Assembly: GCF_031458255.1 (NCBI RefSeq)
Contig: NZ_JAVDYC010000001.1
Span: 7,015,001 to 7,079,000, forward strand
Reading direction: 5' to 3'
DNA: 64,000 nucleotides
Source: Catenuloplanes niger
GTDB lineage: Bacteria; Actinomycetota; Actinomycetes; Mycobacteriales; Micromonosporaceae
Part shown: in pieces, positions 1 to 48,202 of the stretch
Layout: every line of letters starts with the position of its first letter
Numbering within the stretch: the stretch's first letter is position 1
Position numbers and translations under genes: made by a program
Notes under the pieces: generated by a model
Database searches by the model: none
Told to the model about the DNA's origin: nothing
The model's input: only the letters and a program-made list of their open reading frames with translations

Positions 1-3000
1 GCGACAAGCCCTTCTTCCGGTCACTGATGGTCAGCAACCCGAAGGTCCAGCGGGTCCGCGCGCAGGACTACGGCATGACCGAGCTGCCGGTGCCGGCCAA
101 CTCCACCTTCCGGGAGTACGAGCACGACCGCGTCCGGACGAACCAGACGGCGCGGGACCGGCTGGAGAGCCGCGGCTGGTCGCTGCCGGACCGGCGCGGC
201 CGGATCTCCCGCCCGGCGTGGACGAGCGACGACGCCCACTGGATGCCGCTGGACCCGGCGACCGACGAGCCGATGGCGGTGGCCACCGAGACGCTGGACG
301 GTAACGTCACCCGCCTGGTCTCCGGCCGGTACGTCCAGAACGGCCGCGCTTTCGAGGTGGTGGACCCCGGCACCGGCGAGGTCGTGCGCCGGCTTCGATC
401 CTGGACCGGCGCGGACGGCCAGTTGCGGTGGACCGTACCGCCGCTGTCCGCCGAGGACGTCCGCTTCTACGACGCCCTCGCCCGGCGGCGGGGCTTCGAC
501 TCCGGCGAGGACCTGGTACGGACCGTCGTCACCGACGGAGAGTGGGTCGGCCGAGACTTCCTGCTGCCGGGATTCGATCTCTACCGGTTGCCGGTCGGTA
601 ACGACATCGTCCAGGTGCGGGCGACGCTCGACCGCGGCGGCCGGGTCGTCCGGGCGCTGCGCCCGCTGGCGATCGACGGGGACCGCTTCCAGCGGGACGG
701 CCACCTGATGCTCAGGGATCTGGCCGCGGCGGGCTGGACCGTGCGTGCCGGGCACCAGAACCGCCTCAGCGCGACCCGGCGGGTCGTCGAGGTCAACCCG
801 TACCAGCACCAGTCGCGGCGCACGGTGGCGGACGCCCACCGGATCCGCTACCAGCAACCGGCCGGGAGCCCGTTCGTCGGGCTGGTGACGGTGCCGCCAC
901 CGATCCCGGCGGGGCTGCTCCCGGCGACGCCGGCGGTGTCGAAGGCCGATCTGCGTGCGGTCGTCGACGGCGCGCTGTCCCGCTGGACGGACGTGCGTAC
1001 CGTGGTCGCGGCGCTCGACACCGCGGCGGGAGCCGGCATGCCGGTGCCACGGCGGCAGGCCGCGGACGCCGCGCGCAACGCGCTGGACGGCGTGCACCGC
1101 GGACTGAGCGATCTCGCGGACCTGCTCGGCACACTGCCGGAGGACGTCGCGCAGACGCGGCTCGACCTGCTGATGCTCCGCTACGGGCTGGCGCGCGAGC
1201 TGATCGCGCAGGCGCTGCCGGACACGGACACGGTGCTTCCGGTCCCGGCCGCGACGTTCCGCCCGGTCGACGGCGGTCGCCGGCCGTACCCGGTGGACGT
1301 GGTGACCGGCGGCGTGGCGGACCTGGCCGCGGCGGTCCGGATGTCGATCCTCGCCACCACCGGTCTGCCCGGGACCAGCACGCTCGCGCCGCTGCTGCGG
1401 TCCGCGACCGTGCATCGGGACACCGGTGAGCTGCGCGTCGCCCTGCCGTTGGGCACCGTGCGGGTGAAGCCCGGCGCCGGGACTCCGGGTGCCGCCGAGG
1501 CCGCCGCGGTCGGCGAGCTGGCCGCGCGCGTGTCCGCCGGACTCGGCCACGACCCGGTACGCCAGCAGGCCGAACGGATCCACTGGCAGCACGCGGCGCT
1601 GACCGCCATGCTGGCCGGTGCGCCGGGCCGGGAGCGGCCATGGTCCACCGTCCCGGTGGACCGGAGGGCCCTGGAAACGGAACGCCGGCAGCTGTCAGCC
1701 CTCTCCGGCGAGCTGCTGACCCCACAGGCATCACCGGTGGTACACGCCCTGCTCTCCGCATTGCCGACCGGGCAATCGGGGGCCGGCGTGCTCACGGGGG
1801 ACCAGCTGCGGGAGCTCTGGCAGGTCGTCGTCACCAACGGTGACCGGGCTGCGGGCAGCACGGGGGACCGGAGCCTCGCTGAGTGCCTCGCACTGGTGCA
1901 GGACCTGGTGCGCAGGCTGCATCCGGGCGACTGGCAGGGGCACGGGGTGCGCCTCGCCCGCACCCGGGAGGAGCCTACGCCCGGCCGGAACGCGGAGACC
2001 TGGCTCGGCGACCGCGAGGACTGGCAGCGCTTCGGCTCCTGGTCGGACCTGAGCAATCGGATGGGCACCGACCCGAACCTCGGCGCGCGATCGCTGGCCG
2101 TGGTGCTGACCGAGCGTGCGGGAGCGCCGTACGGGCACGTGTACGCGGCGTACCACGCCGGGGACGACGGCGTCCTGTGGATCAACCTGACCGATCGCGG
2201 TGCAGCACCCCGGGTGGGTGCGCCGGGAGAGCTGCCGAGCGACGCCGACACGTACACCCGCGCGATCGTGATCGATCCGGACGGCGTGGTGGCCAGGTCC
2301 ATGAGCCCGGCACCGCCGGCCTCGGAGTCCGGGTCCGCGCCGCTGCTGGATCCCCCGGTCAGCCGGGGATACCGGGGCGGTGGCATCGAGGCCGAGCGCA
2401 CCATGCCGATGGTGCTGCCGGCCGGCGTCCTGAACGACAAGGTGCTCGCCTCCACCATGGACGAGAGCATCGACTTGCTCTCCGACACGAAGTTGCTCTA
2501 CGAGCGGGACGGCGTCTACCACCTCACCCCGGAGGAGGAGGACGAGTGGACGATCAGCGCCGACATCGTCGAACTGCGCAGCGGAGTTCTCGGCATCCTG
2601 CCCGGTGAGGAGAACCGGATCCAGGACACCGACGAGTTCTGGGAGCAGCTGGCGGATGTCGAGCAACGGTTCGAGAACGTCGACACCGAGCCCGGCCGGC
2701 CGGACGAGGACCTCGCCGGGGTCCTCGACGGCAGCAGCTTCCAGATGGCGCCCGGCATCGGTGACACGGCCATCGGCCTGCCACCCGAGGGTGACGAGGG
2801 TGGCAACCACGTCCACCTGTCGTTCGGCGTGCCGACCGAAATGCTGAAGGGATTCCTGTCTGACGTCACGGACGGGACATGGCGGGACTCGACCGTCACC
2901 TACGGCACCGATCTGGGACCGGTGCCGTACCGGACCAAGGCGGGGCAGCAGGAGGGCGCCGAGTTCGGCGCCGGCGTGGCCGCGCACCTTGCCGACTTCC

Positions 3001-6000
3001 TCGGCGCACTCGGCTTCGCCTTCCCCGACCGGGTGGGTACGGCGGTCGAAGGCGTCACGACGCTGCTCTACTCGCACAGCGGCGGCTACATGGACTCCTG
3101 GACACCCAGCCGGAACATCCCGAAGGCGCACGTCGCGACGTTGTCCCGGCACGATCACCGGTTGCTCTGGGGCGACCTGCCGTGGTGGGCGGCGTTCGGC
3201 CTGTCGCTGCAGGCGGACGAGATCCGCGGTGCGCTCGGCCGGCTCTACCTGGAGCGCAACAACGCATTCCTGGACCGGATGCGACAGGCCGGAGCCGACC
3301 ATCCCGAATTGGCCGGGATCACCCGCGACAACTGGGCGGAGTACGGAACCCAGGAGAAGCCGGCCGTCGGCACGTACGTGGACGCCGCCCTCACCGGCCG
3401 TGCGATGCCGCCGCCGCTGGTGTGGGGAAGCACCACCACGTTCCCGGCACTGGACACGAATGGCGGACGGGTCCGGCACGGCCTCGCGATCCTGGAGGTC
3501 CGCTCCTACGGTGCCCGCCGGGTCACCATGCCGCAGACCCGGGACAACTTCCGGTATCTGGCCGGCGGTATCCGGTCCGGGTACGCGGCGATCGCCGGGC
3601 TGGACCCACTGCGCACCGTACCGCTGCAGGACATCGGCGGCGCGGTGACCGGCTCCCCGGTCCACGCGGCGATGTTCCGGGCGGTCCGGCACGCCGCCGC
3701 CGGCGAGACCGCCGAGTCCGCCGCGCAGCTGCGGGCGGCCGTTCAGGCCGGCATCACCAGCGAGCAGCGCGACACGTGGTCCTCGATGCTGGTACTGCGC
3801 GCACGCGTGGAGAGCGCGGCCGGCAACTCCGACTTCGCCAATCGGATCTGGCGGATCGCGGCCGCGATCGCGCAGCCGATCGCGCGTCGCTGGCTGACCG
3901 AGGACCGCATCGGCCGTTGGCGGGACTGGGCCATGGTCGGCGACGCGATCGTCACCGGACGGCGCATCGACGAGCTCCGCACCGTGCTGAGCATCCTGGA
4001 GCGGGGCTCGCACGGGCTGCGGCCGGACCAGGCGCTCGCGGTGCTGCGGGAGAGCCGGTCCCAGCAGCGGTCGGATGCGCTGGGTGCGCTGCTGAGCGCG
4101 GTCACCCCGGAGGGTTTCGGCCTCGCACAGTCGGTGGTCCGGAGCGCGGCGGGTACGCCGCCGGCCGAGAGGCACATGGCGGACGCGATCGGCATGATGC
4201 TCGCTGGTGACACCGCCGGCGCGATCGCGCTCGCGGGATCGGCGATCAACGCCCTGACCCCGAACACCGGCGCGATGTGGGCGGCTGCCATGCACCGGCT
4301 GGCCGGCTCCGGCCCGGCCGCCGTGGTACCACGTGGGCTGGCCGCCGCCGCGGTGCGGACCTGGCTCGCGGCACGCGATCCGAGGCGCGCGCACGAGGCG
4401 CAGGAGAGGCTGCGGGAGTTCGCAGATGCGGCCGGGCCGGCGTTCGGTGCGCTGATCACCGGGCAACTGACCGCGATCCAGCAGGATCCCGGTGCGGACG
4501 CACGCACCCGGGGGTTCCTCGCCGCCTGGCAGCTGTCCGCACTGGACATTGGGGCATCGGCCTACGAGTACCTGGGAGCGGACGATCCGGACGCCCGGCA
4601 CGATCTGCTGTTCAGCATGATCGGCGACGCCTCCGACTCGGACGGCGAGATGCGGATGGACGATGAACCGGAGCTCGGTGTCCGTACCGTGCAGGGTCTC
4701 TGGCAGTTGACCCAGCAGGTGGCCGACGGCGGCCCGCGGGACGTCGTGATCCGCAACACGCTGCGCGCCGTCGTGGCGGTGGCGACCGGGGCGCCGGTCA
4801 ACACGCTGGGCGGATACGCCGGCATGCTGGCCCAGCACCGGGCACACCTCGGCGACGCCGTCGCGCTGCTGAACGCGCTGCATGGCCGGAACCCGGATGA
4901 GCGGGTGGGCGGCGCGGTGACCGGCGTCACGCAACTGGTCCGGCAGATAGCGGCCACTGTGGGCGATGTCCAGGTATTCCGGGCCGAGGTCGCGTACACG
5001 AACCCGCCGGTGCTGCCCCCGCTGCCGCGCGGACTGACCGTCGCGGACCAGATCGCTCAGATGCGCAAGCACGTCGACGCGGCCACCCCGCGCGTTACCG
5101 AGGTGCTGGATCGGTTCCCGCACTCGGATGCCGCCGCGCTGTGGCGCGCAGCCGTGGACGCGCTGGAGAGCAACGGCTCGATCACCGACCTCGCGCTCCT
5201 GTTCAACCAGACCGCGGCCGCGCTCATCCGGCTCGACCGGAGCACGATCGGCGTGCTCGCGCCACTGTGGTCCGGCCGGATCGCGCCGGATCGGGCGGTG
5301 CCGGCGCCGCGCCACGTCGGCCCGTGGACGGCCGGTGACCTCGGCCCGGTGACGGCCGGGCTGAACCGTCCGGTGCTGACCGTGGACCTGAGCGGCCGGA
5401 CTCCGGCCGCGATCGAGCGGCTGGAGCGCGCGCTCCGTGAGCACGCGTGGTGGGGTGAGGTGCCGATCGTCGTCACCACGCACAGTGCCAAGGCCACCAG
5501 GGACGAGTTCACCGCACTCCTTGAGCGGATGCGGGAGGCCGGCGCCGGTGAGCACACCGGACCGGTCGTCATCGAGCAGTCCATGAAGAAGAGGACGCCG
5601 GAGGAGTTCGTGTTGGGCCCCTCCGAGTCGGTGTGGCGGCTGTGGGACCAGAACGGCCGCCTCGTCGACGCCGACCCGGCCACCTCGGTGTCCGAGCTGA
5701 CCAGGGCCCTGTTCCAGAAGGCGGCCAGGCTGGCGACGACACCGATCGGCACCGCGCTGCCCCCGGTCCTCGCCGGCCTGCTCACGGCCGGGGCGGACGC
5801 GGAACAGTTCCACCGGCGGTACCACGAGCAGCTCACCGACCCGGGCGTGCGGGAGGCACTGGACACGGTGATCGCGACCGCGCCGGACCGGGATCACCTG
5901 GCCGGTTTCCGGGCCGCGCTCAGCCTGGACGCCACGGCCACGGAGCGGCTGGTCCCGGCCACGACGAACCTGCTCGGCGTGGAGCCGCCGTACACCGGTG

Positions 6001-6458
6001 GTCCCGTCCCGGCCACGTTCGCCTACGACTTCCTGGCCCAGACCGGTAGCCGGATCGAACGGTTCGCCATGGACGGCCTGTTGTTCCGGATCGTGCTGGC
6101 CGGGCGGATGTCACCGGAGTTCGCGCTGGACCTGCTGCGGGCCAGCGCGCGGAACAAGGTCGACCGGGCCGTCGTCGACGTCTTCGAGTCGGTGGCCGAC
6201 GTGATGGCGCTCACCGAGGAGCAGGCGGCCGCGAACCCGCACACCGATCCACGGCTCAAGGCGATCCTCGCCCGGGTCGAGAAGGTGTCCAGCACCGCGC
6301 GGGAGCCGGGCACGCCGCCGCCGGACTGTGTCGACCCGGTCGACCGGACCGCGTTCGTCGGCCGCCTGGACGCGCTGCGCGACATGCTGCGCGCCGACGG
6401 TCAGGCGGCCCGGGCGTCGCTGATCGAGACGCTCACCTACGTCCTCGCCAACTGCTGA
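1..6458 (+). CDS. Giant modular protein 1 (5' end outside window)
   Basis: The reading frame is already open at nt 3, and the first residues (KPFFRSL..NPKVQ) align with the middle of the beta-module of the sibling giants (QPFFQSM..NTKVQ), so the true start lies upstream; the ATG at 27 is internal. Order of modules, counted from nt 3: rest of one beta-rich module (about 1-280); a helical linker (about 315-415); a papain-like domain with Cys628, His712 (GHVYAAY) and Asp731 (WINLTDR); an amidoligase-like module with Glu857 (VELRSG), His936-x-His938 and Glu1165-Val-Arg1167 (EVRSYGARR); an Ala/Arg-rich helical stretch (about 1220-1650) unique to this copy; and the family C-terminal domain (from about nt 4975) with PPPDC and a terminal Asn-Cys. 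No signal peptide or membrane segment is visible in this part. Function is unknown; domain calls are by eye. Confidence 0.85.
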   Translation, partial: DKPFFRSLMVSNPKVQRVRAQDYGMTELPVPANSTFREYEHDRVRTNQTARDRLESRGWSLPDRRGRISRPAWTSDDAHWMPLDPATDEPMAVATETLDGNVTRLVSGRYVQNGRAFEVVDPGTGEVVRRLRSWTGADGQLRWTVPPLSAEDVRFYDALARRRGFDSGEDLVRTVVTDGEWVGRDFLLPGFDLYRLPVGNDIVQVRATLDRGGRVVRALRPLAIDGDRFQRDGHLMLRDLAAAGWTVRAGHQNRLSATRRVVEVNPYQHQSRRTVADAHRIRYQQPAGSPFVGLVTVPPPIPAGLLPATPAVSKADLRAVVDGALSRWTDVRTVVAALDTAAGAGMPVPRRQAADAARNALDGVHRGLSDLADLLGTLPEDVAQTRLDLLMLRYGLARELIAQALPDTDTVLPVPAATFRPVDGGRRPYPVDVVTGGVADLAAAVRMSILATTGLPGTSTLAPLLRSATVHRDTGELRVALPLGTVRVKPGAGTPGAAEAAAVGELAARVSAGLGHDPVRQQAERIHWQHAALTAMLAGAPGRERPWSTVPVDRRALETERRQLSALSGELLTPQASPVVHALLSALPTGQSGAGVLTGDQLRELWQVVVTNGDRAAGSTGDRSLAECLALVQDLVRRLHPGDWQGHGVRLARTREEPTPGRNAETWLGDREDWQRFGSWSDLSNRMGTDPNLGARSLAVVLTERAGAPYGHVYAAYHAGDDGVLWINLTDRGAAPRVGAPGELPSDADTYTRAIVIDPDGVVARSMSPAPPASESGSAPLLDPPVSRGYRGGGIEAERTMPMVLPAGVLNDKVLASTMDESIDLLSDTKLLYERDGVYHLTPEEEDEWTISADIVELRSGVLGILPGEENRIQDTDEFWEQLADVEQRFENVDTEPGRPDEDLAGVLDGSSFQMAPGIGDTAIGLPPEGDEGGNHVHLSFGVPTEMLKGFLSDVTDGTWRDSTVTYGTDLGPVPYRTKAGQQEGAEFGAGVAAHLADFLGALGFAFPDRVGTAVEGVTTLLYSHSGGYMDSWTPSRNIPKAHVATLSRHDHRLLWGDLPWWAAFGLSLQADEIRGALGRLYLERNNAFLDRMRQAGADHPELAGITRDNWAEYGTQEKPAVGTYVDAALTGRAMPPPLVWGSTTTFPALDTNGGRVRHGLAILEVRSYGARRVTMPQTRDNFRYLAGGIRSGYAAIAGLDPLRTVPLQDIGGAVTGSPVHAAMFRAVRHAAAGETAESAAQLRAAVQAGITSEQRDTWSSMLVLRARVESAAGNSDFANRIWRIAAAIAQPIARRWLTEDRIGRWRDWAMVGDAIVTGRRIDELRTVLSILERGSHGLRPDQALAVLRESRSQQRSDALGALLSAVTPEGFGLAQSVVRSAAGTPPAERHMADAIGMMLAGDTAGAIALAGSAINALTPNTGAMWAAAMHRLAGSGPAAVVPRGLAAAAVRTWLAARDPRRAHEAQERLREFADAAGPAFGALITGQLTAIQQDPGADARTRGFLAAWQLSALDIGASAYEYLGADDPDARHDLLFSMIGDASDSDGEMRMDDEPELGVRTVQGLWQLTQQVADGGPRDVVIRNTLRAVVAVATGAPVNTLGGYAGMLAQHRAHLGDAVALLNALHGRNPDERVGGAVTGVTQLVRQIAATVGDVQVFRAEVAYTNPPVLPPLPRGLTVADQIAQMRKHVDAATPRVTEVLDRFPHSDAAALWRAAVDALESNGSITDLALLFNQTAAALIRLDRSTIGVLAPLWSGRIAPDRAVPAPRHVGPWTAGDLGPVTAGLNRPVLTVDLSGRTPAAIERLERALREHAWWGEVPIVVTTHSAKATRDEFTALLERMREAGAGEHTGPVVIEQSMKKRTPEEFVLGPSESVWRLWDQNGRLVDADPATSVSELTRALFQKAARLATTPIGTALPPVLAGLLTAGADAEQFHRRYHEQLTDPGVREALDTVIATAPDRDHLAGFRAALSLDATATERLVPATTNLLGVEPPYTGGPVPATFAYDFLAQTGSRIERFAMDGLLFRIVLAGRMSPEFALDLLRASARNKVDRAVVDVFESVADVMALTEEQAAANPHTDPRLKAILARVEKVSSTAREPGTPPPDCVDPVDRTAFVGRLDALRDMLRADGQAARASLIETLTYVLANC

Positions 6459-6474
6459 TCGCGATTTACCCCGC

Positions 6475-6507
6475 GTTCACGTGAACCGTGCGGGCGGGCG
6501 CGACGTC
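6475..6507 (+). promoter_or_regulatory. ECF-type promoter of giant gene 2
   Basis: GAACC at 6483-6487, exactly 16 nt, then CGTC at 6504-6507, ending 53 nt before the ATG. The -35 overlaps a perfect 12-bp palindrome GTTCACGTGAAC (6475-6486), which is not present at the sister promoters. The same GAACC-N16-CGTC arrangement precedes each intact giant gene. The ECF assignment is inferred from the motif class. Confidence 0.7.
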
Positions 6508-6560
6508 AAGAGGTGATCGGCGCCGTCGGAGGTACGGCGGCGCCGGGTGAGGAGCACATC

Positions 6561-9500
6561 ATGGCGAACGCCGGGGATTTCCGTCTTGTCTGCGCGGACG
6601 GCCGTTTCATCGCGGTACCCGGCGGCGTCTTCTACCACGACGGTCCGATGGCGGAACCGGTCGACCCGGCCGCGCTGGCCGGTGCCCTGCGGGCGCCCCG
6701 GGTGGCCGGCGCGGTCGCGGTCTTCGTGCCGGAGCGCGCCCGGACCCGGATCGGCGCGACCGACCGGGTCCGCCGCGCGCTGGACGACCTGCCGGCACCG
6801 GCCCGGGACCGTCTGGTGCTCGGCACGCCGCCCGGCGAGGCCGCCGACCAGGCGGCCTGGCTCGGGCTCACCGACGAGCTCGGCCTGGCCAGGCACGCGG
6901 CGTACCGGCCGGGCCTGACGCCCTCGCGGCGCGTCGTCCCACTGGACGCCGCGGGTCTGGAGAACCCGGACCACCCCGCGGCGGTACGGGTGCTGCCCCG
7001 CGACCAGGCGGCCGCGCGCGAGACGGTGCGCGCGGCCCTGGACGGCACGCCACCCTCCTGGGAACGCCTGGAGCTGCTGGCCGTACGGTCCGCCGCGATC
7101 CGCCGTGAGCTGGGCCTGCCGCCGGGACACCGCGGCCGGTCCGGCGCCGGGTACGCGCTGGCGGCCGGGATCGCGTTGTTCGGCGTGCCCGGCGGCGCCG
7201 ACCCCGCGACGCTGCGGCGCGACGTGCGGCAGATCCCGGCGGACGAGGTGCTGCGCGCCTGGGGCGGGCCGGTGGCCGCGGTGGACGCCGGTGAGCTGGT
7301 GGCCGCGCTGGCCGCGGCGCCGGGGTCGGGTGCGCTGGTCCGGGTGCCGGCACCCGGCGCCGGCCGGCCCGGCCTCGTCTGGCTGGTGTCCCGGCCGGGT
7401 GGTCTGGTCTCGATCGATCTGGAGGCCGACGACGACGCCCCGATCCGTGTGCTGACGCCCCGGGACGCGGTATCGATGCTGGGCACCGCCCCGGTCGCGG
7501 CCCGCGTCACCCCGCACGGCGAGGCGAACCCGCAGGGCGAGACGGAACCGCGTGGCGCGGCCGGACCGCGTGGCGAGACGGAACCGCGTGGCGAGACGGG
7601 ACCGCGCGTCGGCCCGGCAGCGGGCGGAGCCGTGGCCCCGCCGGATCCGGCCGATTTCACGGCTGCCGGGATGCGGGCGCTGACCGGCCGGATCGTGGCG
7701 CGGCTCGGCTCCGGCAGCGGCGACGTGTACTGCGCGGCCGCGATCGGTGTGGCCCGCGACGAGCTGTTCGGCCGGTTCGGCGTCGCGCTGACCCCGCCGG
7801 ACGGCCGCTCCCGCGACGACCTCGACCTGCACGACGGGCTCTGGGCCGGCTGGGGCGCGCCCCGCACCTGGCCGCGGACCACCGGCTGGGCGGAGATCGG
7901 CCGGATCGTCGGCGAGGAGCCCGGCCGCGTCGCGTTCGTCCTCTCCGGACGGCCGGGCGCGATCGGCCACGCCTTCCTGGTGGTGAGCACGGCCGACGGC
8001 GTGCTGTGGGTGGACCCGTCCGCGACGCGCGAGGCGGACCGGGTCCGCACGCATGCGGAGATGACCGTCCCCGGCCGCGACGGGCTCCCGAAGGCCGCCG
8101 GCGCGGTCGACCTGCGCACCCGGATCTTCCGCCGGGACGGCACCGCGGTGACCGTCCCGGTCGCGCCGCCGGAGTCCGCGGGACCGGACGCGACCGCGCT
8201 GGCGATGACCGACCGCGCCGACCGGCGCTACCGCGGCTCCGGTGTCGAGGACGAGGAGTCGGTGATGCTCTTCCTCCCGCCGGGCATCGTGCCGAACGAC
8301 GCCCGCAGCCAGGTCCTGGCATGGGGACCGGGCCACACGTACCGGATCGAGGTCGAGACCAAGGGGTTCTTCCTGGGCGCGGACGGCCTGCTGTACGCCT
8401 CGCCGGTGGACGCGCGGGCGGCCGGTGGCGACGGCCGGGCGACGACCGTCGCCATCATCGAACGGGTCAGCGGGATCCTGCGGTCGCACCCGCACGAGGT
8501 GAACCGGCCGGCCCCGGAGCCGGTCTTCGACGCGTTCGGGCGGATGGCCGCGAAGACCAGGACGCTGCCCGGCTCGGACGGCGGCGGACCTGTCATGCCG
8601 CTGACCGAGTTCCTCTCCGGGCTCGACCTCGACCTCGAGTTCACCGACCTGGGCCTGCGGACCGCGGTCGGGCGCCCGCCGGTCCGCGACGAGCCCGGCT
8701 CGCACTACCACTACACGCACGGCGTCGTGCTCTCCGGGATGCGCGAGTTCCTCGAGCACGTCCGCGACAACACCTGGCGGAACCTGGACCTCGGCTACCT
8801 GACCCAGGAGCACCTGACCGACGGCCTGCGGTTCGGCGATCAGCTGGCCGAGTGGTTCCTGGAGGACGGCCCGGAGGCGTCCGGCACCGCGAACCTGATC
8901 GCCGGGTACGCGGCCCTGTTCTACGACAGCTTCGCCGGTGCCGCCACCTGGCCGATCTACGCCGGGCTGAACAAGGTGGAGATCGCGGTGCTGTCCCGGG
9001 TCGACGCGTTCGCCGACATCCTGGAGCGGATGCCGATGGACGTGGTCGAGTTCTTCGGCGAGAACTGGGACCGGATCTGGGCGGAGCTGCAGTTCAGCAT
9101 CGGCGCCCGGATACCGGACTACACCACGCGTTACCGGGCCAGGAACCACGACGAGCGGTTCTTCTTCAAGGACGACTTCCGGCACGCGCTCACCCACGGG
9201 CGGCTGCACACGCTCGAGGAGTACGCGCGGAGCGCGTTCGTCCTGGACGCCGAGCGGGTGACGCAGTGGGACGCGATCGGATACACCACCGCGGCCCCGC
9301 TGGACCTGGCCGGCGGCGCGCTCCTGCGCGAACACGTACCGGTCGAGGTGCGTTCGTACGTCGCCCGCCGGATCACCGCCCGCCGGGCGCAGCAGCTGAA
9401 CGGGGAGCTGTCCCGGCGCGCCGCCGCCGCGTACGACGCGGCGCTGGCCGTCGGCCCGGCCGAGCGTGCCGCCGGTGCCCGGGCCTGGCTGAGCCCGGTC

Positions 9501-13649: not shown

Positions 13650-13663
13650 CCCGGGAGCCTGCC

Positions 13664-15691: not shown

Positions 15692-15701
15692 CCGGACGCC
15701 C

Positions 15702-15727
15702 GGCCCGCCTCCGCACCGAGGCGGGCC
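15702..15727 (+). terminator. Hairpin terminator after the 675-aa gene
   Basis: A perfect 10-bp stem GGCCCGCCTC / GAGGCGGGCC with a 6-nt loop starts 11 nt after the stop. It has no T-run, as is common in actinomycetes. It separates the giant 2 operon from the giant 3 promoter. Confidence 0.75.
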
Positions 15728-15768
15728 CGCGGGCCGGATACCTGAAAAAGGAGCCTAGGAGGGGCAAC

Positions 15769-15810
15769 TTCTGTTAATTGATGGTGAACCGTTGATCCGG
15801 TCGCCACGTC
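15769..15810 (+). promoter_or_regulatory. ECF-type promoter of giant gene 3
   Basis: GAACC at 15786-15790, 16 nt, CGTC at 15807-15810, ending 51 nt before the GTG start. The upstream element TTCTGTTAATTGATG (from 15769) recurs almost unchanged at 40463. Confidence 0.75.
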
Positions 15811-15861
15811 AGTTGGTCATCGGTGCCGCCATGTCCGGCGGGACGGGGTGAGGAGAGCGGC

Positions 15862-18800
15862 GTGGCGAATGCCGGGGCCTTCGGACTGATCTGCGCGGAC
15901 GGCCGTTTCATCGCGGTGCCGGGCGGCGTCTTCTACCACGACGGGTCGATGGCCGATCCGGTCGATCCGATAGCGCTGACCGGCGCGTTCCGGGCCGACC
16001 GCGCCTCCGGCTCCACCATGGTCTACGTCCAGGAGCGGACCCGGCTCAAGCCCGGCGCGATGGAACGACTGCGCCGCGCGCTCGCCGACCTGCCGGCGCC
16101 GATCCGTGACCGCCTCGTCCTCGGCACCCTCCCCGGCGAGAGACTCGACCAGGCGACCTGGCGGGAACTCACGGAGCAGCTCGACCTCGCCAAGCACGCG
16201 CCGTACCGGCCCGGCATGGAACGCTCCGGCCGCGTCGTACCGCTGGATGAATCGGGTCTGGAGAACCAGGACAACCCCTCGGCGGTACGTGTGCTGTCCC
16301 GCGCGCAGGCCGCCGCCCGGGAGACACTGCACGCCGCGTTGACCGGCGCGCCCCCGTCCTGGGACCGGCTCGTCGCGCTGGCCGGCCGCGCGTCCGCCAT
16401 CCGCGACGACCTGCTGGTGCCCTCGAGGCTGAGCGGCGACGAGCAACGCAGCCCGCTGAGCGCCACGTACGCGCTGGCGGCCGGCATCACGCTGTTCGGA
16501 CTCCCGGCCGGCCTCGACGAGGCGGCGCTGAAGCGTTCCGTGCGACCGGTCGGCGCCGACGAGGTGCTGCGCGCCTGGGGCGGATCCGCGATCCCCACCG
16601 ACCCGGCCGACATCGTCACCACCCTGCTCGCCACGCCCGGCTCCGGCGCCCTGATCCGGACCGACGCCACCGGCACGGACCCGGTCCTCGGCTGGCTGGT
16701 CTCCCGGCCGGAGGGCCTGGCCTGGATCAACCCGGGACTGGACGGTGGCGCCGCCATCCGGCTGATGCCGGCGCGGGACGCGGTGGCACTGCTGCGCGCC
16801 CTGCCCGGTGCGAAGCCCGCCGCGCTCCGGGTCGATCCGCGGAACCGTCCGGCCACGGACACCGCCCCGGCGCCCGGTTACGACTACTACGTCGGTGCGG
16901 CCGGGATGCCGCCGGTACCACCGCTGCAGGTGACGTCGCGGCTGCCGTCCTCCGTGGACGGTGTGCGGGCCGCGGTCGACGGCGCGCTGTCACGGTGGGC
17001 GGCGACCAGCGACCGGGTGCTGTCCGCCATCGACGTGGTGCGCGGATCGTCCGAGGTCTCGGCGCCGCGCCGGGCGACGGCGGAGGCGGTGCGCGAGGTG
17101 TTCGACCGGTTCGGGCCGGCGCTGGAGGAGCTGGCCGGCCGGCTCCCCGGTCTGTCGGATGACGCGGCGCGGACCCGGGCCGGGGCGGTCGTGGAGCGGT
17201 ACGAGCTGGTGAACCAGATGCTGGTGGCGCTGCTGGGAGATCTCCCGGCCACCGCGGTGCTGTCGCCGGTGTCGGAGATGGTACGGGCCGGCCGGGTGCT
17301 GGCGCCCGCGTCCGAGATGTTCCGGGCGCCCGGCGGCGGCGCGCTGCCGGACGGCCCGGTCACCGGGCTCCCCGCGGCCGACGAGCTCACCGTTCTCATG
17401 CAGGACGGCACCGGCCCCACATGGGCCGTGTCGACCGCGTCGGCGCTTCCGCCGTACACGGTGGGGGTGGCGCCGGACGGTTCCTACGTCGTGGCCAAGC
17501 CGCCGGGACCCGGGGACGACAAGCCGTACGGATTCTCCGGTTTCGAGGTGTTCGGCCCGGACGGGCTCCCGCGCGGGACGATCGAGGCGTCGATCGACGC
17601 GACGGAGCCCGGCCCGGCGACCGGCGGCTTCGTCGCCACGGACTTCCTGACCAACCTGTCCGACGTCGCGGATGCGCTGGACCTGACCACCTTCTACGCC
17701 ACCGGCGTGAGCGCCGGCGAGTTCTTCCTGTCGCTGCGGGTCGGCAACGAGAAGGTCTGGGACATCCGTGAGAACGCGTACGGGATGGAGGAGCTGTCCG
17801 GCCCGAACGCGAATCCGCGTGACTACCGGCAGGAACGGACGGTCAGCCACGAGAAGGCCCGTGAGCGGCTCGAGGAGCGCGGCTGGACGCTCCCCACGGA
17901 CGGGTTCGCCGCGAGCCGGGTGCTGCGACCGGCGTGGACCGGCGTCGATCCCGGCTGGGCGCCGGTGGTCGTCACGGCGGACGGCATCGAGTCGCTGTCC
18001 GTGGTCATGGAGACGCTGGACGGCGAGTCGGTCCGGCTGGTCTCCGGCCGCTACCTCGACGACGGTGGATTCGCCGTGGTCAACCCGGACACCGGTGCCG
18101 TCGTCGGGCGGTTGCACTCCTGGATCGGGCAGGACCGCGTCCCCCGGTGGTCCGGCGAGGCGCTCTCACCGTCGGTCGCCCGGGCGTTCGGCGCGGAGGA
18201 CCTGACGGCGGACGAATTCGTCCGGGCCGTCGTGCGCGGTGGCACGCGCGTGCGGGACGATCTGGCCATCCCCGGGTTCGGCCTGTACCGCCTGGAGCTG
18301 GACGAAGAGGTCTTCCTGGTCCGGGCGACGGTCGACGCGGACGGACGCGTCGTACGGGCGCGCCGGCCGCTGGCACTCGACGAGGCCGTGTACGGCGGCC
18401 CCGGGGCGCCCGCACCCGACCCGATCGCCGAGCTGCGCCGTGCCGGGTGGACGGTGTGGACCGGTCACCGCAATCGCGTCGACGCGCGCACCCGGACGCT
18501 GACGATCGACCCCTACAGCGGGTTCGCCTGGAACGCCGTGACCACGGCGCAGGCGCATCAGTCGCACGCGAACGAGCTGCGGGTCTTCCCGATGCAGGTG
18601 CAGGACCCGGACGACTGGGCGTCCGACGCGTCGACCGTCGGCCCGAGGTCGGTGGCCGGGGACGAGGAGCCGGAACCGTCGGGCTTCGATCAGGCGGAGG
18701 CGGCCCGCGACGTACTGCGCAACTGGGACGGAGGGCCGCACGACCGGGCACTCGCCGGGCTCGACGAGGCCATGGCCGACCCGGGAGCGCGGCCGGAGGA

Positions 18801-21800
18801 CGTGGCCGCCGCCCGCGCCGCGCTGGACACGTTCCGTGCACTGCTGGTGCGGCACTCCGAGGGGGACATCAGCTTCGACCCCGATCAGTATTCCAGTCCG
18901 CTCCAGGAGCTGGTGCGCACCTACACCGAGGCGGAACGGCTGATGTCGCGCGCGGTGCGCGGCGCGCACGCGCTGCCCACCCTCCACGAGTTGCATCGAC
19001 CATCCCTGATCGAAGGTTACCCGGAGCACACCGTGGGTGTCGCGCCGGACGGCTCGTTCGTCGTGGCCAGGGCGGCCGCACGGGGGGTGGACGAGCCGCA
19101 CGGCTTCCGGGGCTTCGACGTGCTGGGTCCGGACGGACGGTTCCGCGGCACGATCGAGTCGACGACCGAGGTGTCGGACGACTCCGTCATCATCCGTCTC
19201 GGGGACGTCTCCCAGATCCCCGGCGCCGTCGCGCTGAACATCTTCTACGCGGCGGAGCTGATGAGCGATCACGAGTTCCTCGACGTGGTCGACGTGCACG
19301 ACGAGGAGATGCGGCGGTTCCTCCGGGACGAGCTCGGCATGCGGGGGCTGCCCTTCCTCCTCGACGACATCAGCATCTATCGCCTGGAGCGCGACGCCGC
19401 CCCGGAGGCCATGGCGGATCGGCTGATCGCCTCCGGGTGGACCCTGCCCGGCGGGGACTTCTCCGACTCGTACGAGCTGCGGCCCGAGTGGTCGGACGAG
19501 GCCCCGGACTGGGCACCGACGCTGGACGGGGAGCCGCTGGCGATCGTGACGGAGACGCTGGCCGGTGGCTTCTCCCGCCGGGTGTCCGGTCGTCACGCGC
19601 CGGACGGCGTGTTCGAGGTGGTGTATCCGGAGGTCGGTGAGGTCGTGCGCCGGCTGCACGCGTGGACCGCGCCGGGTGGCGGCGAGCGCTGGTCGGCCGA
19701 GCTGCTCCCGGCGGCCGACCGGAGCCACTGGGAGGAGGCGCGCGACCGGGCCGGCCTGCCGGAGATGACGGCCGAGGAGTTCGTCCGTCACGTGGTGACG
19801 AACGGGGAGCTCCTGCGCCTGGACCGGCTGCTGCTCGGCTTCCGGCTCTACGGGATGGTCCTCGGCGACGAATTCGTCCTGGTCCGGGCCATGGTCGACG
19901 TCGAGGGGCGAGCCGTCATGGCCCGGCCTCCGCTGGCGTTCGACCGGTCGCAGTTCCCGGCGGACCTTCGCGACCCCGCGCCGGCGCGCCGTCGTCTCGC
20001 GGACGTCTACGACGCCGGGTGGACGGTGGAAACCGATCGCACGAACGACAGCAACCAGTATTCGCGCTCCGTGACGCTCAATCCGTACACGGCCTCCGCC
20101 TGGGACACGCTGACCGAGGTGCACCAGAGGCGCCACGTGCCGGCGCCCGAATCTCCGCAGCCCTTACCGGTGATCATCCCGGGCCAGATGCCCACCGAGG
20201 ACCTCCTGGACGCTGTCGGGGAGAGCGACGACGCCACGCGCCGAGCCGAGGCCGAGCGCACCTCGTCGTCGGTGCGGGCGCTCCGGGACGAGATCACGTC
20301 GATGTTGCCCACCACGATCGCCGAGGTCGAGGCGGTGGTCGATGCCGCGCGTGCTCGCCTGCGCGAGTTGCAGACCTGGGCCGACGCGCTGGCCCGCGAC
20401 GACAGCCGGACCGTACCCGCGTCGGTGATCGCCGGGATCCAGGGGCTGGCCCTCGTCGGCCGGCGACTGGACGACCTGGCCGCTGAGCTGAGCACGATGC
20501 CGCTCGACGAGGCGCTCGACGATCTGTCGTCCGTCATGAGGCACTATCACGAGGCCGACGTGCGGCTGATGGACGCGCTGCACGGTGCCACGCCCCTGCC
20601 GCCGATGGGCGTGATGTTCCGGCCGGGCTCCCCGGTGTTGCCGCCCTACACCGTCGGCCGGGCCGCGGACGGTTCCTACGTGGTGGCCAGGGCGCCGGGG
20701 GAGGGAGACGCGCAGCCGCACGGTTTCCTCGGATTCGACGTGTACGGCCCGGACGGGCGTCCGCGGGGCGTGATCGACGTCGAGCTCGACGAGGACGCCG
20801 AGAGCGTCGTCATGAACTGGCTGGGCAACGCCTCGGCCGTGCCGGGTGGGCCGGACCTGGCCGTCTTCTACGCCACCGCCTCCGGCGTCAGCGACCGTCG
20901 TCACCTCGACGTGGTGTACGTCGCGGACGAGGACGAGCGGAGGATCTGGGAAGGGGCCTACCGCATGGCGGCCCGGCCGACCTCCGTCGAAGGCGCCCGC
21001 GATTACCGCCAGGAGCGGGGGACCGCCCACGCGACGGCCCGCAAGCGGCTCGGAGAGCTGGGCTGGACGTTACCGGACGGCGACTTCGCGGTCCCGCGTA
21101 CGCTGCGGCCGGCGTGGACCGACACCGAGCCCACCTGGGCGCCGGCCGTGGGCGGGCAGCCGCTCGACGTGATCCCGGAGACGATGGGCGACGGCAGTAC
21201 CCGTCCGGTCTCCGGGCGCCGGGTGGCCGAGGACGCCTTCCGGGTGGTGGATCCCGCCACCGGCGAGGACCGTCACCTGCTGCGATCCTCGGCCGGCCCG
21301 GACGGCGGCATCCGGTGGACGGCGCCGCCGCTGTCGCCGGACGACCTCCGGCACTTCGCGAGGATCGCCCGCGGCGGTGGCTGGCCCGGTGCGGACGACC
21401 CCCTCGCACACTTCGAGCGGAGAATCGGCGAGCGCAGCGGACCGGGTGTCGCGGACACCGATTCCCTCGGCCTGATCGTCGCGATCGTCACGCAAGGCTC
21501 CCGGCTGCGTGACGACCTCGTCCTCCCCGGCTTCGGCCTGTACCGGCTGACCTCGGGAACGCGCACGGCGATGGCGCGGGCGAAGGTCGCCCCCGACGGC
21601 CGGATCATCGAGGTGCGCCCGCCGTTGGCCGTCGACGAACTGCTGCAGACGCACGACGGGCACCACCTGCTCACCGAGCTGCGTGCAGCCGGTTGGTCGA
21701 TCCAGGTCGGGCACCGGAACATCGTGGACGAGGGCAAGAGCGTCCTGGTGCTCAACCCGTACCACGCGGACGGGTGGGAGGCGCTCGCCACGGCGCACCG

Positions 21801-23559
21801 GGCCTCGCGCAGCGCGTACCGCCAGGCACTCCACCTCCGGCAGTCGGTCGCGCTCGCCGTCCCGGCCATCACCTCGACCCTGGCGGACGATCCGGACGAG
21901 GGCCGGGTCGTCGCCCGGCTCTGGCGGGACGCGGTCAGCGGCCTGCGATCGGTTGTCACCCGGGCCGAGAACTCGGGTGAGATAGCCGAGGCGCAGCTCC
22001 TGGCCGAGCTCCGACACGTCCGGCAGCTGCTGGACCAGGCCGCGAATCGCGTCGTGAGCCTCGGCGGGGGCACCGGATCCGCGGTCCATTCGCTTCTGCG
22101 GCCGCTGCTGATGCCGCGGCCCGCCCCGGAGAACCCGGAGATCTTCCGGGCCGACGTCGCCTACGCCGATCCGCCGGTGCTGCCCCGGATGCCGGGCGTG
22201 CGCTCGGCGGGGGATCAGGTCGCCGAGTTGCGCCGGCACGTCGACGCGGCGGAGGCACGGGTCCGCGCGGTGCTCGACCGGTTCCCGCACTCCGACGCCG
22301 CCGAGGTGGCCCGGACCGCGCTGCGGGAGCTGGAGCGGGCCGAGCGCAGCACGCCCGGCGAGTCCGACGTGCGGAGCCTCCGGTTCCTCCTGGACCAGGC
22401 CGCGGCCGGCGTGATCCAGCTCGACCCGTCGGCCCGCACCGTACTGCGGCCGCTGTGGTCCGGCCGCCGGACGCCGGCCCGGCCGGTGCCGGCCGCGCGC
22501 AGCCTCGGGGCGTGGGCGGACGGTGATCTGGCGTCGCTCACCGCGGGCCTGCCCCGTCCGGTGCTGTCCGTGAACCCGGCGGCGATGACGGACCTCGAAC
22601 CCGCGCTGCGCGCGCACCAGCGATGGGGCGAGGTGCCGGTCGTGCTCACCACGCTGGGCACCAAGGCCACCGACGAGGTGTTCGCCGGGCTGCGTGAGCG
22701 GTTCCGGCCGGTCGTCGTCCAGCAGGCGGTGACCGGCGACATGACCAAGGTGTGGCGCCTGATCGATCAGCACGGTGTCGTGGTGCGGGAGGCGCCGGCG
22801 CTGACCGCCGAGCTGCTCCGGACCGCCGGCGGTCTCCCGGCCGCGCCGCACGGCACCGCGCTGCCCCCGGTCCTGGCCGGGCTGCTCACGGCCGACGACC
22901 CGGTCGCCTACCAGCGGACACACGAGCAGGAGCTGTCCGACCCGGGGGTACGGGACGCGCTCGACACGGCGATCGCGAACGACCCGGACGGGGCGCGCCT
23001 CGCCGCCTTCCGGGTCGCGCTCAGCCTGCCGCCCGGCCCCGCGGAGCGGCTGGTCCCGGCCGTGAGCAGTGTGCTCGCGGTCGAACCCGCCTACACGGGC
23101 GGGCCGGTCCCGGCGTCGTTCGCCTACGACTTCGCGGCACAGATCGACGGCCGGAAGGAGCGGTTCGCCATGGACGGGCTGCTGTTCCAGCTCGTCCTGG
23201 CCGGGCGGATCGCCCCGGGCCAGGCACTGGACCTGTTGCGGGCGGCCGAGCGGACCGCGGTCGACCGTGCGGTGACCGACGTCTTCGAGGCGGTGCTGGA
23301 CGCGGTGGCTCTCTCCGAGCAGCAGGCGGCCGGCGACCCGCACACCGATCCGGTGCTGAGGTCCATCCTGGACCGGGTGCGGACGGTCGCCGTCACCGCG
23401 CGGAAGCCGGGTGCGCCGCCACCGGACTGCGTCGACCCGATCGACCGGACCGCGTTCGTCGGACGTCTGGACGCGTTGCGCGACATGCTGCGTGACTCCG
23501 GAAGTCCCGCGCGGGCCGCCGTGATCGAGGCGGTCAACTACACCCTCGCGAACTGCTGA
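15862..23559 (+). CDS. Giant modular protein 3, triple beta-module
   Basis: 2,565 aa. The GTG at 15862 (VANAGA) is preferred because it follows GGTGAGGA and aligns with the MANAGD starts of the siblings. Residues 1-335 are the shared N-terminal domain (CADGRFIAVPGGVFYHDG). A helical linker (about 360-470) precedes the first beta-module (about 529-896). Two further linker plus beta-module pairs follow (modules at about 1052-1423 and 1594-1993). Each module opens with YTVGVAPDGSYVVA-like sequence and carries GFxxFDVxGPDGRxRGTI, a WTLP segment, VSGR and GFGLYRL. The C-terminal domain begins near 2093 and ends Leu-Ala-Asn-Cys. No papain-like or amidoligase-like residues are seen, unlike giants 1 and 2. 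TTA codons lie at 20164 and 21070. Function is unknown; the repeats suggest a binding or adhesive role, which is only a guess. Confidence 0.9.
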   Translation: MANAGAFGLICADGRFIAVPGGVFYHDGSMADPVDPIALTGAFRADRASGSTMVYVQERTRLKPGAMERLRRALADLPAPIRDRLVLGTLPGERLDQATWRELTEQLDLAKHAPYRPGMERSGRVVPLDESGLENQDNPSAVRVLSRAQAAARETLHAALTGAPPSWDRLVALAGRASAIRDDLLVPSRLSGDEQRSPLSATYALAAGITLFGLPAGLDEAALKRSVRPVGADEVLRAWGGSAIPTDPADIVTTLLATPGSGALIRTDATGTDPVLGWLVSRPEGLAWINPGLDGGAAIRLMPARDAVALLRALPGAKPAALRVDPRNRPATDTAPAPGYDYYVGAAGMPPVPPLQVTSRLPSSVDGVRAAVDGALSRWAATSDRVLSAIDVVRGSSEVSAPRRATAEAVREVFDRFGPALEELAGRLPGLSDDAARTRAGAVVERYELVNQMLVALLGDLPATAVLSPVSEMVRAGRVLAPASEMFRAPGGGALPDGPVTGLPAADELTVLMQDGTGPTWAVSTASALPPYTVGVAPDGSYVVAKPPGPGDDKPYGFSGFEVFGPDGLPRGTIEASIDATEPGPATGGFVATDFLTNLSDVADALDLTTFYATGVSAGEFFLSLRVGNEKVWDIRENAYGMEELSGPNANPRDYRQERTVSHEKARERLEERGWTLPTDGFAASRVLRPAWTGVDPGWAPVVVTADGIESLSVVMETLDGESVRLVSGRYLDDGGFAVVNPDTGAVVGRLHSWIGQDRVPRWSGEALSPSVARAFGAEDLTADEFVRAVVRGGTRVRDDLAIPGFGLYRLELDEEVFLVRATVDADGRVVRARRPLALDEAVYGGPGAPAPDPIAELRRAGWTVWTGHRNRVDARTRTLTIDPYSGFAWNAVTTAQAHQSHANELRVFPMQVQDPDDWASDASTVGPRSVAGDEEPEPSGFDQAEAARDVLRNWDGGPHDRALAGLDEAMADPGARPEDVAAARAALDTFRALLVRHSEGDISFDPDQYSSPLQELVRTYTEAERLMSRAVRGAHALPTLHELHRPSLIEGYPEHTVGVAPDGSFVVARAAARGVDEPHGFRGFDVLGPDGRFRGTIESTTEVSDDSVIIRLGDVSQIPGAVALNIFYAAELMSDHEFLDVVDVHDEEMRRFLRDELGMRGLPFLLDDISIYRLERDAAPEAMADRLIASGWTLPGGDFSDSYELRPEWSDEAPDWAPTLDGEPLAIVTETLAGGFSRRVSGRHAPDGVFEVVYPEVGEVVRRLHAWTAPGGGERWSAELLPAADRSHWEEARDRAGLPEMTAEEFVRHVVTNGELLRLDRLLLGFRLYGMVLGDEFVLVRAMVDVEGRAVMARPPLAFDRSQFPADLRDPAPARRRLADVYDAGWTVETDRTNDSNQYSRSVTLNPYTASAWDTLTEVHQRRHVPAPESPQPLPVIIPGQMPTEDLLDAVGESDDATRRAEAERTSSSVRALRDEITSMLPTTIAEVEAVVDAARARLRELQTWADALARDDSRTVPASVIAGIQGLALVGRRLDDLAAELSTMPLDEALDDLSSVMRHYHEADVRLMDALHGATPLPPMGVMFRPGSPVLPPYTVGRAADGSYVVARAPGEGDAQPHGFLGFDVYGPDGRPRGVIDVELDEDAESVVMNWLGNASAVPGGPDLAVFYATASGVSDRRHLDVVYVADEDERRIWEGAYRMAARPTSVEGARDYRQERGTAHATARKRLGELGWTLPDGDFAVPRTLRPAWTDTEPTWAPAVGGQPLDVIPETMGDGSTRPVSGRRVAEDAFRVVDPATGEDRHLLRSSAGPDGGIRWTAPPLSPDDLRHFARIARGGGWPGADDPLAHFERRIGERSGPGVADTDSLGLIVAIVTQGSRLRDDLVLPGFGLYRLTSGTRTAMARAKVAPDGRIIEVRPPLAVDELLQTHDGHHLLTELRAAGWSIQVGHRNIVDEGKSVLVLNPYHADGWEALATAHRASRSAYRQALHLRQSVALAVPAITSTLADDPDEGRVVARLWRDAVSGLRSVVTRAENSGEIAEAQLLAELRHVRQLLDQAANRVVSLGGGTGSAVHSLLRPLLMPRPAPENPEIFRADVAYADPPVLPRMPGVRSAGDQVAELRRHVDAAEARVRAVLDRFPHSDAAEVARTALRELERAERSTPGESDVRSLRFLLDQAAAGVIQLDPSARTVLRPLWSGRRTPARPVPAARSLGAWADGDLASLTAGLPRPVLSVNPAAMTDLEPALRAHQRWGEVPVVLTTLGTKATDEVFAGLRERFRPVVVQQAVTGDMTKVWRLIDQHGVVVREAPALTAELLRTAGGLPAAPHGTALPPVLAGLLTADDPVAYQRTHEQELSDPGVRDALDTAIANDPDGARLAAFRVALSLPPGPAERLVPAVSSVLAVEPAYTGGPVPASFAYDFAAQIDGRKERFAMDGLLFQLVLAGRIAPGQALDLLRAAERTAVDRAVTDVFEAVLDAVALSEQQAAGDPHTDPVLRSILDRVRTVAVTARKPGAPPPDCVDPIDRTAFVGRLDALRDMLRDSGSPARAAVIEAVNYTLANC

Positions 23560-23593
23560 CCGGACGGTGATCCGGGTCATGTCGTGAACGGAC

Positions 23594-23621
23594 GGTGAAC
23601 CGTGGATGATCCGGCGACGTC
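23594..23621 (+). promoter_or_regulatory. ECF-type promoter of the 92-aa gene
   Basis: GGTGAACC with GAACC at 23597-23601, 16 nt, CGTC at 23618-23621, ending 50 nt before the ATG. A second GTGAAC lies 11 nt upstream (23584) but has no matching CGTC at the right spacing. Confidence 0.7.
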
Positions 23622-23671
23622 GTCACGCCGTCGGAGCGTCGTCAACACGGCGGCGCGGGTGGGAGCGTGAC

Positions 23672-23950
23672 ATGTCGACTGCCGGTACCGTCCTTCTCGA
23701 GCGCCGGCCGCAGCCGGCGGTGGTGCACGACCCGGACCGCATCGGCCGTGCCGTGCTCGACGCCGTCCGGCTCCACCTCCGCGGCGCCGGCCGGCATGCC
23801 GTGGTGGACGCGATCCACGGACATCCCACGTACGCCGGGGCCGGTGGCCGTGCCGCCTGGGCCCGGCGCCTCCAGTCGCTCAAGGGCGAGATGCCGCAGT
23901 ACGCCGCCGTGCTCGACCGGATCGCGGTCCATGTCATGACCTGCCCGTAA
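23672..23950 (+). CDS. 92-aa stand-alone tail protein
   Basis: Residues about 26-92 align along their whole length with the last 67 residues of the 675-aa partner: LHLRGA, HPTY, GR, WARRLQSL, EMPQYA and terminal MTCP. The protein is therefore almost nothing but the family's C-terminal tail, with a 25-residue lead. It has its own ECF-type promoter and sits where a partner gene would be expected after giant 3. It has one Cys, at the penultimate position. No signal peptide or membrane helix is seen. It may be a remnant of a full partner gene or a deliberately small partner; its intact frame and promoter favour a working gene. Confidence 0.75.
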   Translation: MSTAGTVLLERRPQPAVVHDPDRIGRAVLDAVRLHLRGAGRHAVVDAIHGHPTYAGAGGRAAWARRLQSLKGEMPQYAAVLDRIAVHVMTCP

Positions 23951-40462: not shown

Positions 40463-40504
40463 TTCTGTTGATTGATGGTGAACCGCCGAAGTGCTGGCGT
40501 CGTC
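40463..40504 (+). promoter_or_regulatory. Orphan ECF-type promoter
   Basis: TTCTGTTGATTGATG then GAACC at 40480-40484, 16 nt, CGTC at 40501-40504. It repeats the giant 3 promoter including its upstream element, but no family gene starts within the next 240 nt. It may be the relic of a deleted gene or a distal second promoter for giant 4. Confidence 0.6.
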
Positions 40505-40718: not shown

Positions 40719-40746
40719 GGTGAACCAAAGTGGATAGCGCTACGTC
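40719..40746 (+). promoter_or_regulatory. ECF-type promoter of giant gene 4
   Basis: GGTGAACC with GAACC at 40722-40726, 16 nt, CGTC at 40743-40746, ending 51 nt before the ATG. Confidence 0.72.
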
Positions 40747-46907: not shown

Positions 46908-46943
46908 GTGACGATTCCGCTGACCCCGCGCGTCATGGGGCTC
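46908..46943 (+). pseudogene. 5' remnant of a 675-aa-type partner gene
   Basis: A GTG 14 nt after the giant 4 stop, with GGGAG before it, encodes VTIPLTPRVMGL, matching the first ten residues of the 675-aa partner (VTLPLTQRVM). The frame hits a stop made by the first bases of the IS. Position and spacing equal those of the intact pair at 13649/13664. Confidence 0.85.
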
Positions 46944-47006
46944 TGATGCACCGATAGGTGACATCTGAGATGGCTTGCCATGACGGCGGGCTGGAAGGAT
47001 GTTGCT

Positions 47007-48175: not shown

Positions 48176-48202
48176 CTTGACCTGTCACCTATTGGTGCAG
48201 CA

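Follow-up and report, generated by a model that had tools for sequence, protein, structure and literature searches.

The region analysed here (the window) is a 64,000-nucleotide stretch of the Catenuloplanes niger genome (9.74 Mb, a single contig), bases 7,015,001-7,079,000. It carries four very large open reading frames (ORFs), which we call giants 1 to 4, together with a smaller partner gene of 675 amino acids (aa). Alignment showed that all four giants share an N-terminal region of ∼335 aa with 55-69% identity (the N frame) and a C-terminal region of ∼470 aa with 54-63% identity (the C frame), between which lie long middles, referred to as cargo. The giants and their parts are as follows.

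1..6458 (frame 3-6458), plus strand: giant 1, C-terminal 2,151 aa only; C frame at 5025-6458
about 1884, plus strand: papain-like Cys6530 of giant 1, from a papain-like pattern scan
6513..13649, plus strand: giant 2, 2,378 aa from the first start; N frame at 6561-7556, C frame at 12228-13649, ending NC
Cys407 and Cys1179 of giant 2, plus strand: papain-like domains, with a PF15644 match at residues 463-502
15823..23559, plus strand: giant 3, 2,578 aa from the first start; N frame at 15862-16887, C frame at 22162-23559, ending NC
40798..46893, plus strand: giant 4, 2,031 aa; N frame at 40798-41823, C frame at 45478-46893, ending NC

The gene for giant 1 begins 17.7 kb upstream of the window, and reading of the upstream DNA showed its frame to be unbroken from L001:1297 (L numbers denote sequenced stretches or the giants read from them; G000 is the C. 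niger genome itself and other G numbers are relatives). Giant 1 would thus comprise 8,053 aa from this first possible start or 8,031 aa from the conserved frame start at L001:1363; since the promoter match at 6,997,285-6,997,310 encloses L001:1297, the frame start is the likelier one. In giants 2 and 3 the conserved frame starts are the ATG at 6561 and position 15862, respectively. A sequence-only reading of the window had assigned the C-terminal domain to all four giants, as we also find, and the N-terminal domain to the three with visible starts; the latter extends to all four. Neither frame end reached a Pfam or NCBIfam cut-off, and a weak STAS_2 match in the N frame of giant 3 (residues 107-188, E 0.013) is below cut-off. 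In its interior, giant 1 contains a partial C frame at residues 3836-4118 and two smaller pieces, and because of these we suggest that it may have arisen by fusion of units.

In order to define the extent of the family, a profile was built from the four C frames. It matched 15 places in the C. niger genome, 11 of which are the full C-termini of separate giants, and it found all of the 33 giants that were read across five species of one genus. As at most 4-10 candidates were scored per genome (10 in the scan of relatives), the 33 giants and the following tallies, in which the C. niger genome is counted, are lower bounds: the C frame is present in at least 8 of 151 relatives, at least 6 of 298 genomes of the order and at least 1 of 394 genomes of the class. 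A search of genome contigs gave one named relative with a C-frame gene, Catenuloplanes japonicus. The last residue is a cysteine (Cys) in all 33 giants, 32 of which end in NC and one in TC. A Cys in the N frame is present in 31 of 31 aligned rows, the pattern by which the rows were picked itself containing that Cys; the two giants outside these rows are L056, whose 5′ end is cut off, and L042 (1,203 aa, lacking an N frame), which is probably part of a split gene. By eye, the counterpart of giant 1 in G003 (C1:7433914-7446558 and on; L100, L101, L042) seems to be split over several frames.

Comparison of ends with middles revealed two opposite situations within the C. niger genome. L037 and L038 have ends that are 53% (N) and 57% (C) identical but share 0% of their middles, whereas L035 and L040, whose ends are only 28% and 34% identical, share 83% of theirs. 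For the 11 C. niger giants taken together, the ends match most other giants and the middles match few. Since frame similarity and middle similarity disagree in both directions, the comparison shows that cargo has been exchanged and duplicated among frames and has not simply diverged. Within the window, the middle of giant 2 has nothing in common with those of giants 3 or 4, in agreement with the sequence-only reading that the middles differ, but the same claim fails for giants 3 and 4: giant 3 contains three repeated modules of ∼440 aa, giant 4 contains one such module and a papain-like pattern at Cys748, and 78% of the middle of giant 3 is matched in giant 4 through these modules. The middle of giant 1 matches giants 2-4 over 17-22% of its length. 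Polymorphic toxins combine a conserved delivery part with exchanged toxin modules; the exchange of middles is seen here, and we infer that the frame would be the delivery part and the middles toxic. The proposal that a constant frame with variable cassettes resembles a polymorphic effector system is well supported.

Six ortholog pairs gave dN/dS values of 0.38 for the partner and 0.48-0.57 for the giants, and the best segments of G000 and G003 are 97% identical for the T7SS (type VII secretion system) gene product EccC, 79% for giant 2 and 86% for giant 3. By these measures giants and partner are constrained but fast-evolving. A sequence search of the PDB with residues 1-5,000 of giant 1 and with L040 gave no match at E 0.01, the viral contigs searched gave none, and a PF13946 probe had no match. 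No plasmid in the plasmid search matched the partner; giant 4 had one weak match (23.7% identity, E 2e-5), in which a 466-aa 'hypothetical protein' of a Streptomyces anthocyanicus plasmid (L103:11668-13068), standing after conjugation genes, aligns with residues 642-951.

The partner gene and its remnants were located as follows.

13664..15691, plus strand: full partner, 675 aa, following giant 2; two Cys (14 and 674), ending TCP
23606..23950, plus strand: partner tail remnant (partner positions 602-669), following giant 3, ending MTCP
46908..46946, plus strand: partner remnant after giant 4, the first 12 codons and then a stop
46980..48175, plus strand: IS3-like element with two overlapping transposase-like frames, identified by eye, between the partner fragments of giant 4
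48192..48299, plus strand: partner remnant beyond the IS3-like element, covering positions 5-40 of the partner (E 2e-6)

These positions confirm that a Cys-tailed partner or its remnant follows three of the four giants, being whole after giant 2 and degraded after giants 3 and 4; in addition, a small Cys-tailed ORF lies upstream of giant 1 (L001:880-1191). Profile comparisons, each a single comparison, aligned the partner colinearly with the N frame (E 1e-9 over 269 columns) and with the C frame (E 4e-10 over 144 columns), and gave no match between the N frame and the C frame (E 0.17). Because it is homologous to both, the partner is best read as a frame without cargo, a putative empty frame. 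Each of the 15 aligned partners contains two Cys and no more, at residue 14-16 and at the penultimate residue; as these 15 were chosen by patterns holding both Cys, the count adds only the absence of a third. Further homologues were listed in addition to these 15. At the fetched loci a scripted tally placed a partner beside 15 of 29 giants and missed at least two, since L037 and L056 also have partners. The best match of the partner profile in the PDB (E 0.28) is at the level of chance. Possible empty frames of other genera were seen at G039:C1:3020965-3023232, G273:C1:2028847-2031120 and G121:C44:26593-28710: these are 705-757 aa long, have T7SS genes nearby and combine a C-frame-like domain (E 2e-20 to 2e-46) with a near-terminal Cys.

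The giants are strongly depleted in Cys. The 33 proteins contain 166 Cys in 105,625 aa (0.157%), compared with 236 Cys in 30,540 aa (0.77%) for 45 neighbourhood ORFs and 0.85% for 14 other ORFs of the window; L040 has just 4 Cys in 4,960 aa. Base composition was considered as a cause and rejected, as 25-30 Cys would be expected in giants 2-4 and 4-5 were seen. The Cys that remain are not scattered: 108 of the 166 fall within the first 70 or last 60 residues, and 45 of the 52 cargo Cys examined conform to a papain-like C-H-D/N pattern, compared with a mean of 6.3 and a maximum of 13 for random positions (300 trials). These 52 are what remains once six Cys in the N-terminal parts of two giants, L050 and L036, are set aside. 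Read from the list, a papain-like Cys lies within ∼160 residues of a frame-cargo border in 23 of 33 giants. Orthologues are part of all these Cys counts, which are therefore not independent. The sequence-only reading had also raised a match to proteins annotated 'lonely Cys'. The depletion and the terminal Cys are real and these proteins likewise have few Cys in a very long chain, but the identity could not be confirmed: no NCBIfam model of that name was matched, in a library that may or may not hold one, and literature searches yielded nothing.

Most residues of the middles have no match in Pfam or NCBIfam. The papain-like assignment made from the sequence alone was borne out by PF15644 (papain fold toxin 1, Tox-PL1), which scored 42.4 bits in giant 1 and 28.6 bits in giant 2 against a gathering cut-off of 24.1 and was also matched in 2 of 15 further giants. 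A relationship to the papain-like profile extends to the second half of the N frame (hhalign E 1e-6), where the Cys and His positions have been lost; the same profile matches the partner (E 2e-4) but not the C frame. A stretch of giant 1 resembling a DXD glycosyltransferase passed the PF04488 cut-off (24.1 bits versus 23) and gave a TcdA/TcdB-type match below cut-off. Among the 15 giants, a RIO/Kdo-kinase-like domain was found in one (E 2e-4) and SMC-like coiled-coil matches in three.

The proposed amidoligase-like domain is less certain. Giant 1 contains the motifs GIEIEF (near residue 1288) and GSHVH (near residue 1415) and is the sole place in the genome with a PF12224 (Amidoligase_2) signal, but this signal is sub-threshold (12.5 bits versus a cut-off of 22, E 0.54). 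A peptide-tagging or natural-product system, in which amidoligase and papain-like domains modify a peptide or protein tail, could account for the two motifs and the single PF12224 place; with the profile below its curated cut-off and the two-part motif present in 1 of 33 giants, we regard such a system as very improbable, and the earlier suggestion of a peptide-modifying system finds no support beyond the motifs themselves.

Alternatively, the giants could be multi-effector toxins that deliver themselves or are released by lysis, in the style of MARTX or large clostridial toxins, the constant ends handling entry, an internal cysteine protease freeing the effectors and the T7SS being a mere neighbour in a conflict island. 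MARTX toxins have constant ends, an exchangeable effector middle and an internal cysteine protease. The constant ends and variable multi-enzyme middles of the giants, the papain-like pattern at the border, the frame without a T7SS signal and the glycosyltransferase stretch of giant 1 are all consistent with this explanation. However, a hydropathy scan found no strongly hydrophobic stretch in any of the 33 giants, RTX repeats were unmatched in the Pfam and NCBIfam scans, and T7SS genes remain near the C frame across genera; the empty-frame partner is a further difference from MARTX. We therefore consider self-delivery unlikely.

The sequence-only reading had further noted the same promoter ahead of each intact unit. 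The following promoter-like matches were recorded.

6482..6507, plus strand: TGAACC-N16-CGTC before giant 2
15785..15810, plus strand: TGAACC-N16-CGTC before giant 3
23596..23621, plus strand: TGAACC-N16-CGTC before the partner tail remnant
40479..40504, plus strand: further match upstream of giant 4
40721..40746, plus strand: match directly before giant 4
genome 6,997,285-6,997,310, plus strand: match of giant 1, upstream of the window

Thus TGAACC-N16-CGTC stands ahead of giants 1-4, as had been claimed. The genome holds 37 exact copies, 7 of which lie in this 59-kb cluster, all on the plus strand ahead of units. The strict form occurs within 400 bases of only 7 of 27 other giants, and the -10 letters vary, but in 29 of 31 giants the looser GAAC-N17-CGT[ACT] is found no more than 160 bases ahead of the frame Cys, with a spacer of 17 in all 29 although 16-19 were permitted. 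Markov shuffles gave a mean of 1.2 and a maximum of 5 (300 runs), and random stretches gave 5%. Judged by consensus sequences, the pattern is tentatively of the extracytoplasmic function (ECF) type.

A shared promoter suggests a programme, and raises the possibility that the giants are intracellular proteins that are never exported, perhaps taking part in sporangium or spore formation as scaffolds or enzymes, in which Cys depletion would reflect an unusual structural role. The lack of a hydrophobic segment, judged by hydropathy alone, and the SMC-like coiled coils matched in three of 15 giants are in line with such a role. Toxin-type papain domains, a DXD glycosyltransferase and cargo swapping fit conflict better, as does the lower G000-G003 identity of giants 2 and 3 (79% and 86%) compared with that of EccC (97%), and on this evidence we judge an intracellular role to be quite unlikely.

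The claim that the region contains no T7SS holds for the 10 window proteins scanned but not beyond them: 39 kb upstream of giant 1 there is an ESX-type T7SS locus. Its genes are ordered LuxR-type regulator, beta-helix-AAA protein (EccA-like), EccC, WXG100, second WXG-like protein, EccD and a giant of 7,572 aa, with matches for EccC (FtsK_SpoIIIE, 2e-82), EccD/YukD (3e-18) and WXG100 (6e-10). EccC, EccD/YukD and WXG100 genes occur together in the C. niger genome, G001, G003, G015, G039 and G273, the EccD of G003 having been located by the YukD-proximity search described below rather than by locus reading. In G000, G001 and G003 a giant-partner pair lies on the far side of the T7SS block, and related blocks with Cys-tailed giants are present in G015, G039 and G273. 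A YukD/EccD gene was found ∼9-25 kb from a C-frame match, on the same contig, in each of the 9 genomes tested, a set without G354 and G362, whose C-frame matches are weak; for six of the nine the chance product is 3e-8. Large multi-domain effectors are also carried by contractile injection systems and type VI secretion systems, and the giants could in principle be cargo of such a system encoded elsewhere in the genome. No gene of that kind was present among the 20 neighbour proteins scanned, no genome-wide search having been made, and we hold this origin to be most improbable.

The T7SS block also encodes a second type of giant, with a C-terminal WXG100 domain and a YxxxE motif. The C. niger protein (G000:C1:6937602-6947804; L082:1602-11804) has 3,400 aa and no Cys; homologues of 3,223 aa (G003) and 1,296 aa (G001) likewise lack Cys, and one of 1,771 aa (G039) has 3. 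Two WXG100-tailed proteins outside the alignment (G001 and G015) still match at about 1e-21. The beta-helix-AAA protein (L082:13405-16188) is an EccA-like AAA domain fused to a right-handed, NosD-like beta-helix. It has matches at 1e-60 in 89 of 345 class genomes, many over the AAA part only, and near full-length matches in one piece in 9 of 345 (own genome included). Among ten more distant, hand-picked beta-helix-AAA loci, five, including all four loci with an EccC-like gene, have giants poor in Cys (2,602-5,867 aa with 0-6 Cys) no further than 20 kb away; the other five have neither.

Several observations weigh against reading the frame giants as polymorphic effectors tied to this T7SS. A WXG100 domain was found in none of the 33 frame giants or 15 partners at E 0.1, and YxxxD/E occurs in the last 60 residues of only 1 of 33 C frames and 3 of 15 partners, compared with 7 of 7 WXG_1, 4 of 5 WXG_2 and 5 of 5 WXG100-tailed giants; for these reasons canonical T7SS export of the frame giants is not indicated. 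The proximity result is tempered by the abundance of YukD genes, present in 86 of 101 relatives, and by the framing of the test after the first locus had been seen. The Cys-poor giants of the ten distant loci do not match the frame profiles, so their Cys poverty is no evidence for this frame. The N-frame rows and the partners were chosen by patterns containing the conserved Cys, and a full partner adjoins only 5 of the 11 C. niger giants.

Further features were noted in passing. The 7,572-aa frame (G000:C1:6959001-6981719; L083, L084), directly after EccD, has 5 Cys and ends LTCMD; Pfam matches to it and to part of a 5,271-aa giant remained below cut-off (best E 0.043). A YbaB/EbfC-family protein is encoded against it (L084:5761-6420, minus strand), and by eye a similar small gene stands beside a giant in G001. 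Open frames with papain-like repeats lie near beta-helix genes in G001 (C1 up to 1271784, L086-L088; 14,755 aa, of which 13,927 were read) and in G002 (C12:183030-220112, L089-L091; at least 12,360 aa). In the window itself, 28633-29418 (minus strand) and 51884-53065 (plus strand) encode two MmyB-type regulators (HTH_31 plus MLTR_LBD).

The view that no described system fits was too strong, since the general kind is already known: giant multi-toxin proteins of actinobacteria, such as SACTE_5178 (13,652 aa), were described in 2012 (Zhang et al., PMC3482391, accessible passages). Like these, the giants are actinobacterial, thousands of residues long, and carry several toxin-type domains including peptidases. 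The lethal-factor-like, caspase, ART and MCF1-SHE domains named in those passages are absent from the library matches of our giants, and the description given there mentions no shared N or C frame, empty partner, Cys depletion or T7SS link. A releasing role has been proposed for some internal Tox-PL1 copies (PMC3482391, same passages), a family whose C-H-D pattern the giants share and to which the N frame is related with the Cys lost. With the WXG100/LXG polymorphic toxins of T7SS the likeness lies in the locus, which has a WXG100 pair, EccC, EccD and a nearby Cys-free WXG100 giant; here, however, the WXG100 domain is C-terminal in the neighbouring giant and missing from the frame giants. Literature searches, as far as the accessible texts go, returned nothing pointing to the frame, the empty partner, the T7SS link or a loaded/empty two-gene unit with terminal Cys. 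The empty-frame partner, the pattern of Cys depletion, the common promoter and the T7SS neighbourhood are apparently new.

Taken together, we consider it probable that the giants form an exported effector family. That they are polymorphic effectors belonging with the type VII (ESX-like) gene neighbourhood has about an even chance, and export by this particular T7SS falls a little short of one. The frame, probably with the partner, would carry the giant to the outside, either with the T7SS or as a component of what that system exports, and Cys depletion would keep the long chain clear of wrong disulfides during export. The conserved N- and C-terminal Cys might hold the frame ends together, help them to fold, or connect giant and partner. 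At the frame-cargo border, the papain-like domain may free the cargo by cutting, or may itself be a toxin; a releasing protease is a tentative assignment, with the odds somewhat against it. Other domains, such as the DXD glycosyltransferase and amidoligase-like stretches of giant 1 and the kinase-like domain elsewhere, would modify target proteins, presumably in competitors or eukaryotic grazers. A more elaborate version, which we think improbable, makes the frame a delivery vehicle: loaded giants and empty partners would co-assemble via the Cys that they share close to the N-terminus and at the C-terminus, be closed covalently and be exported with a distinct T7SS subtype, that of the beta-helix ATPase and the Cys-free WXG100-tailed giant, with papain-like release in the target cell.

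To our knowledge, little is known of what most actinobacterial T7SSs outside the mycobacteria export. A T7SS gene set accompanied by Cys-depleted giants, one class of which is WXG100-tailed, offers a concrete and testable answer to what such systems may export.

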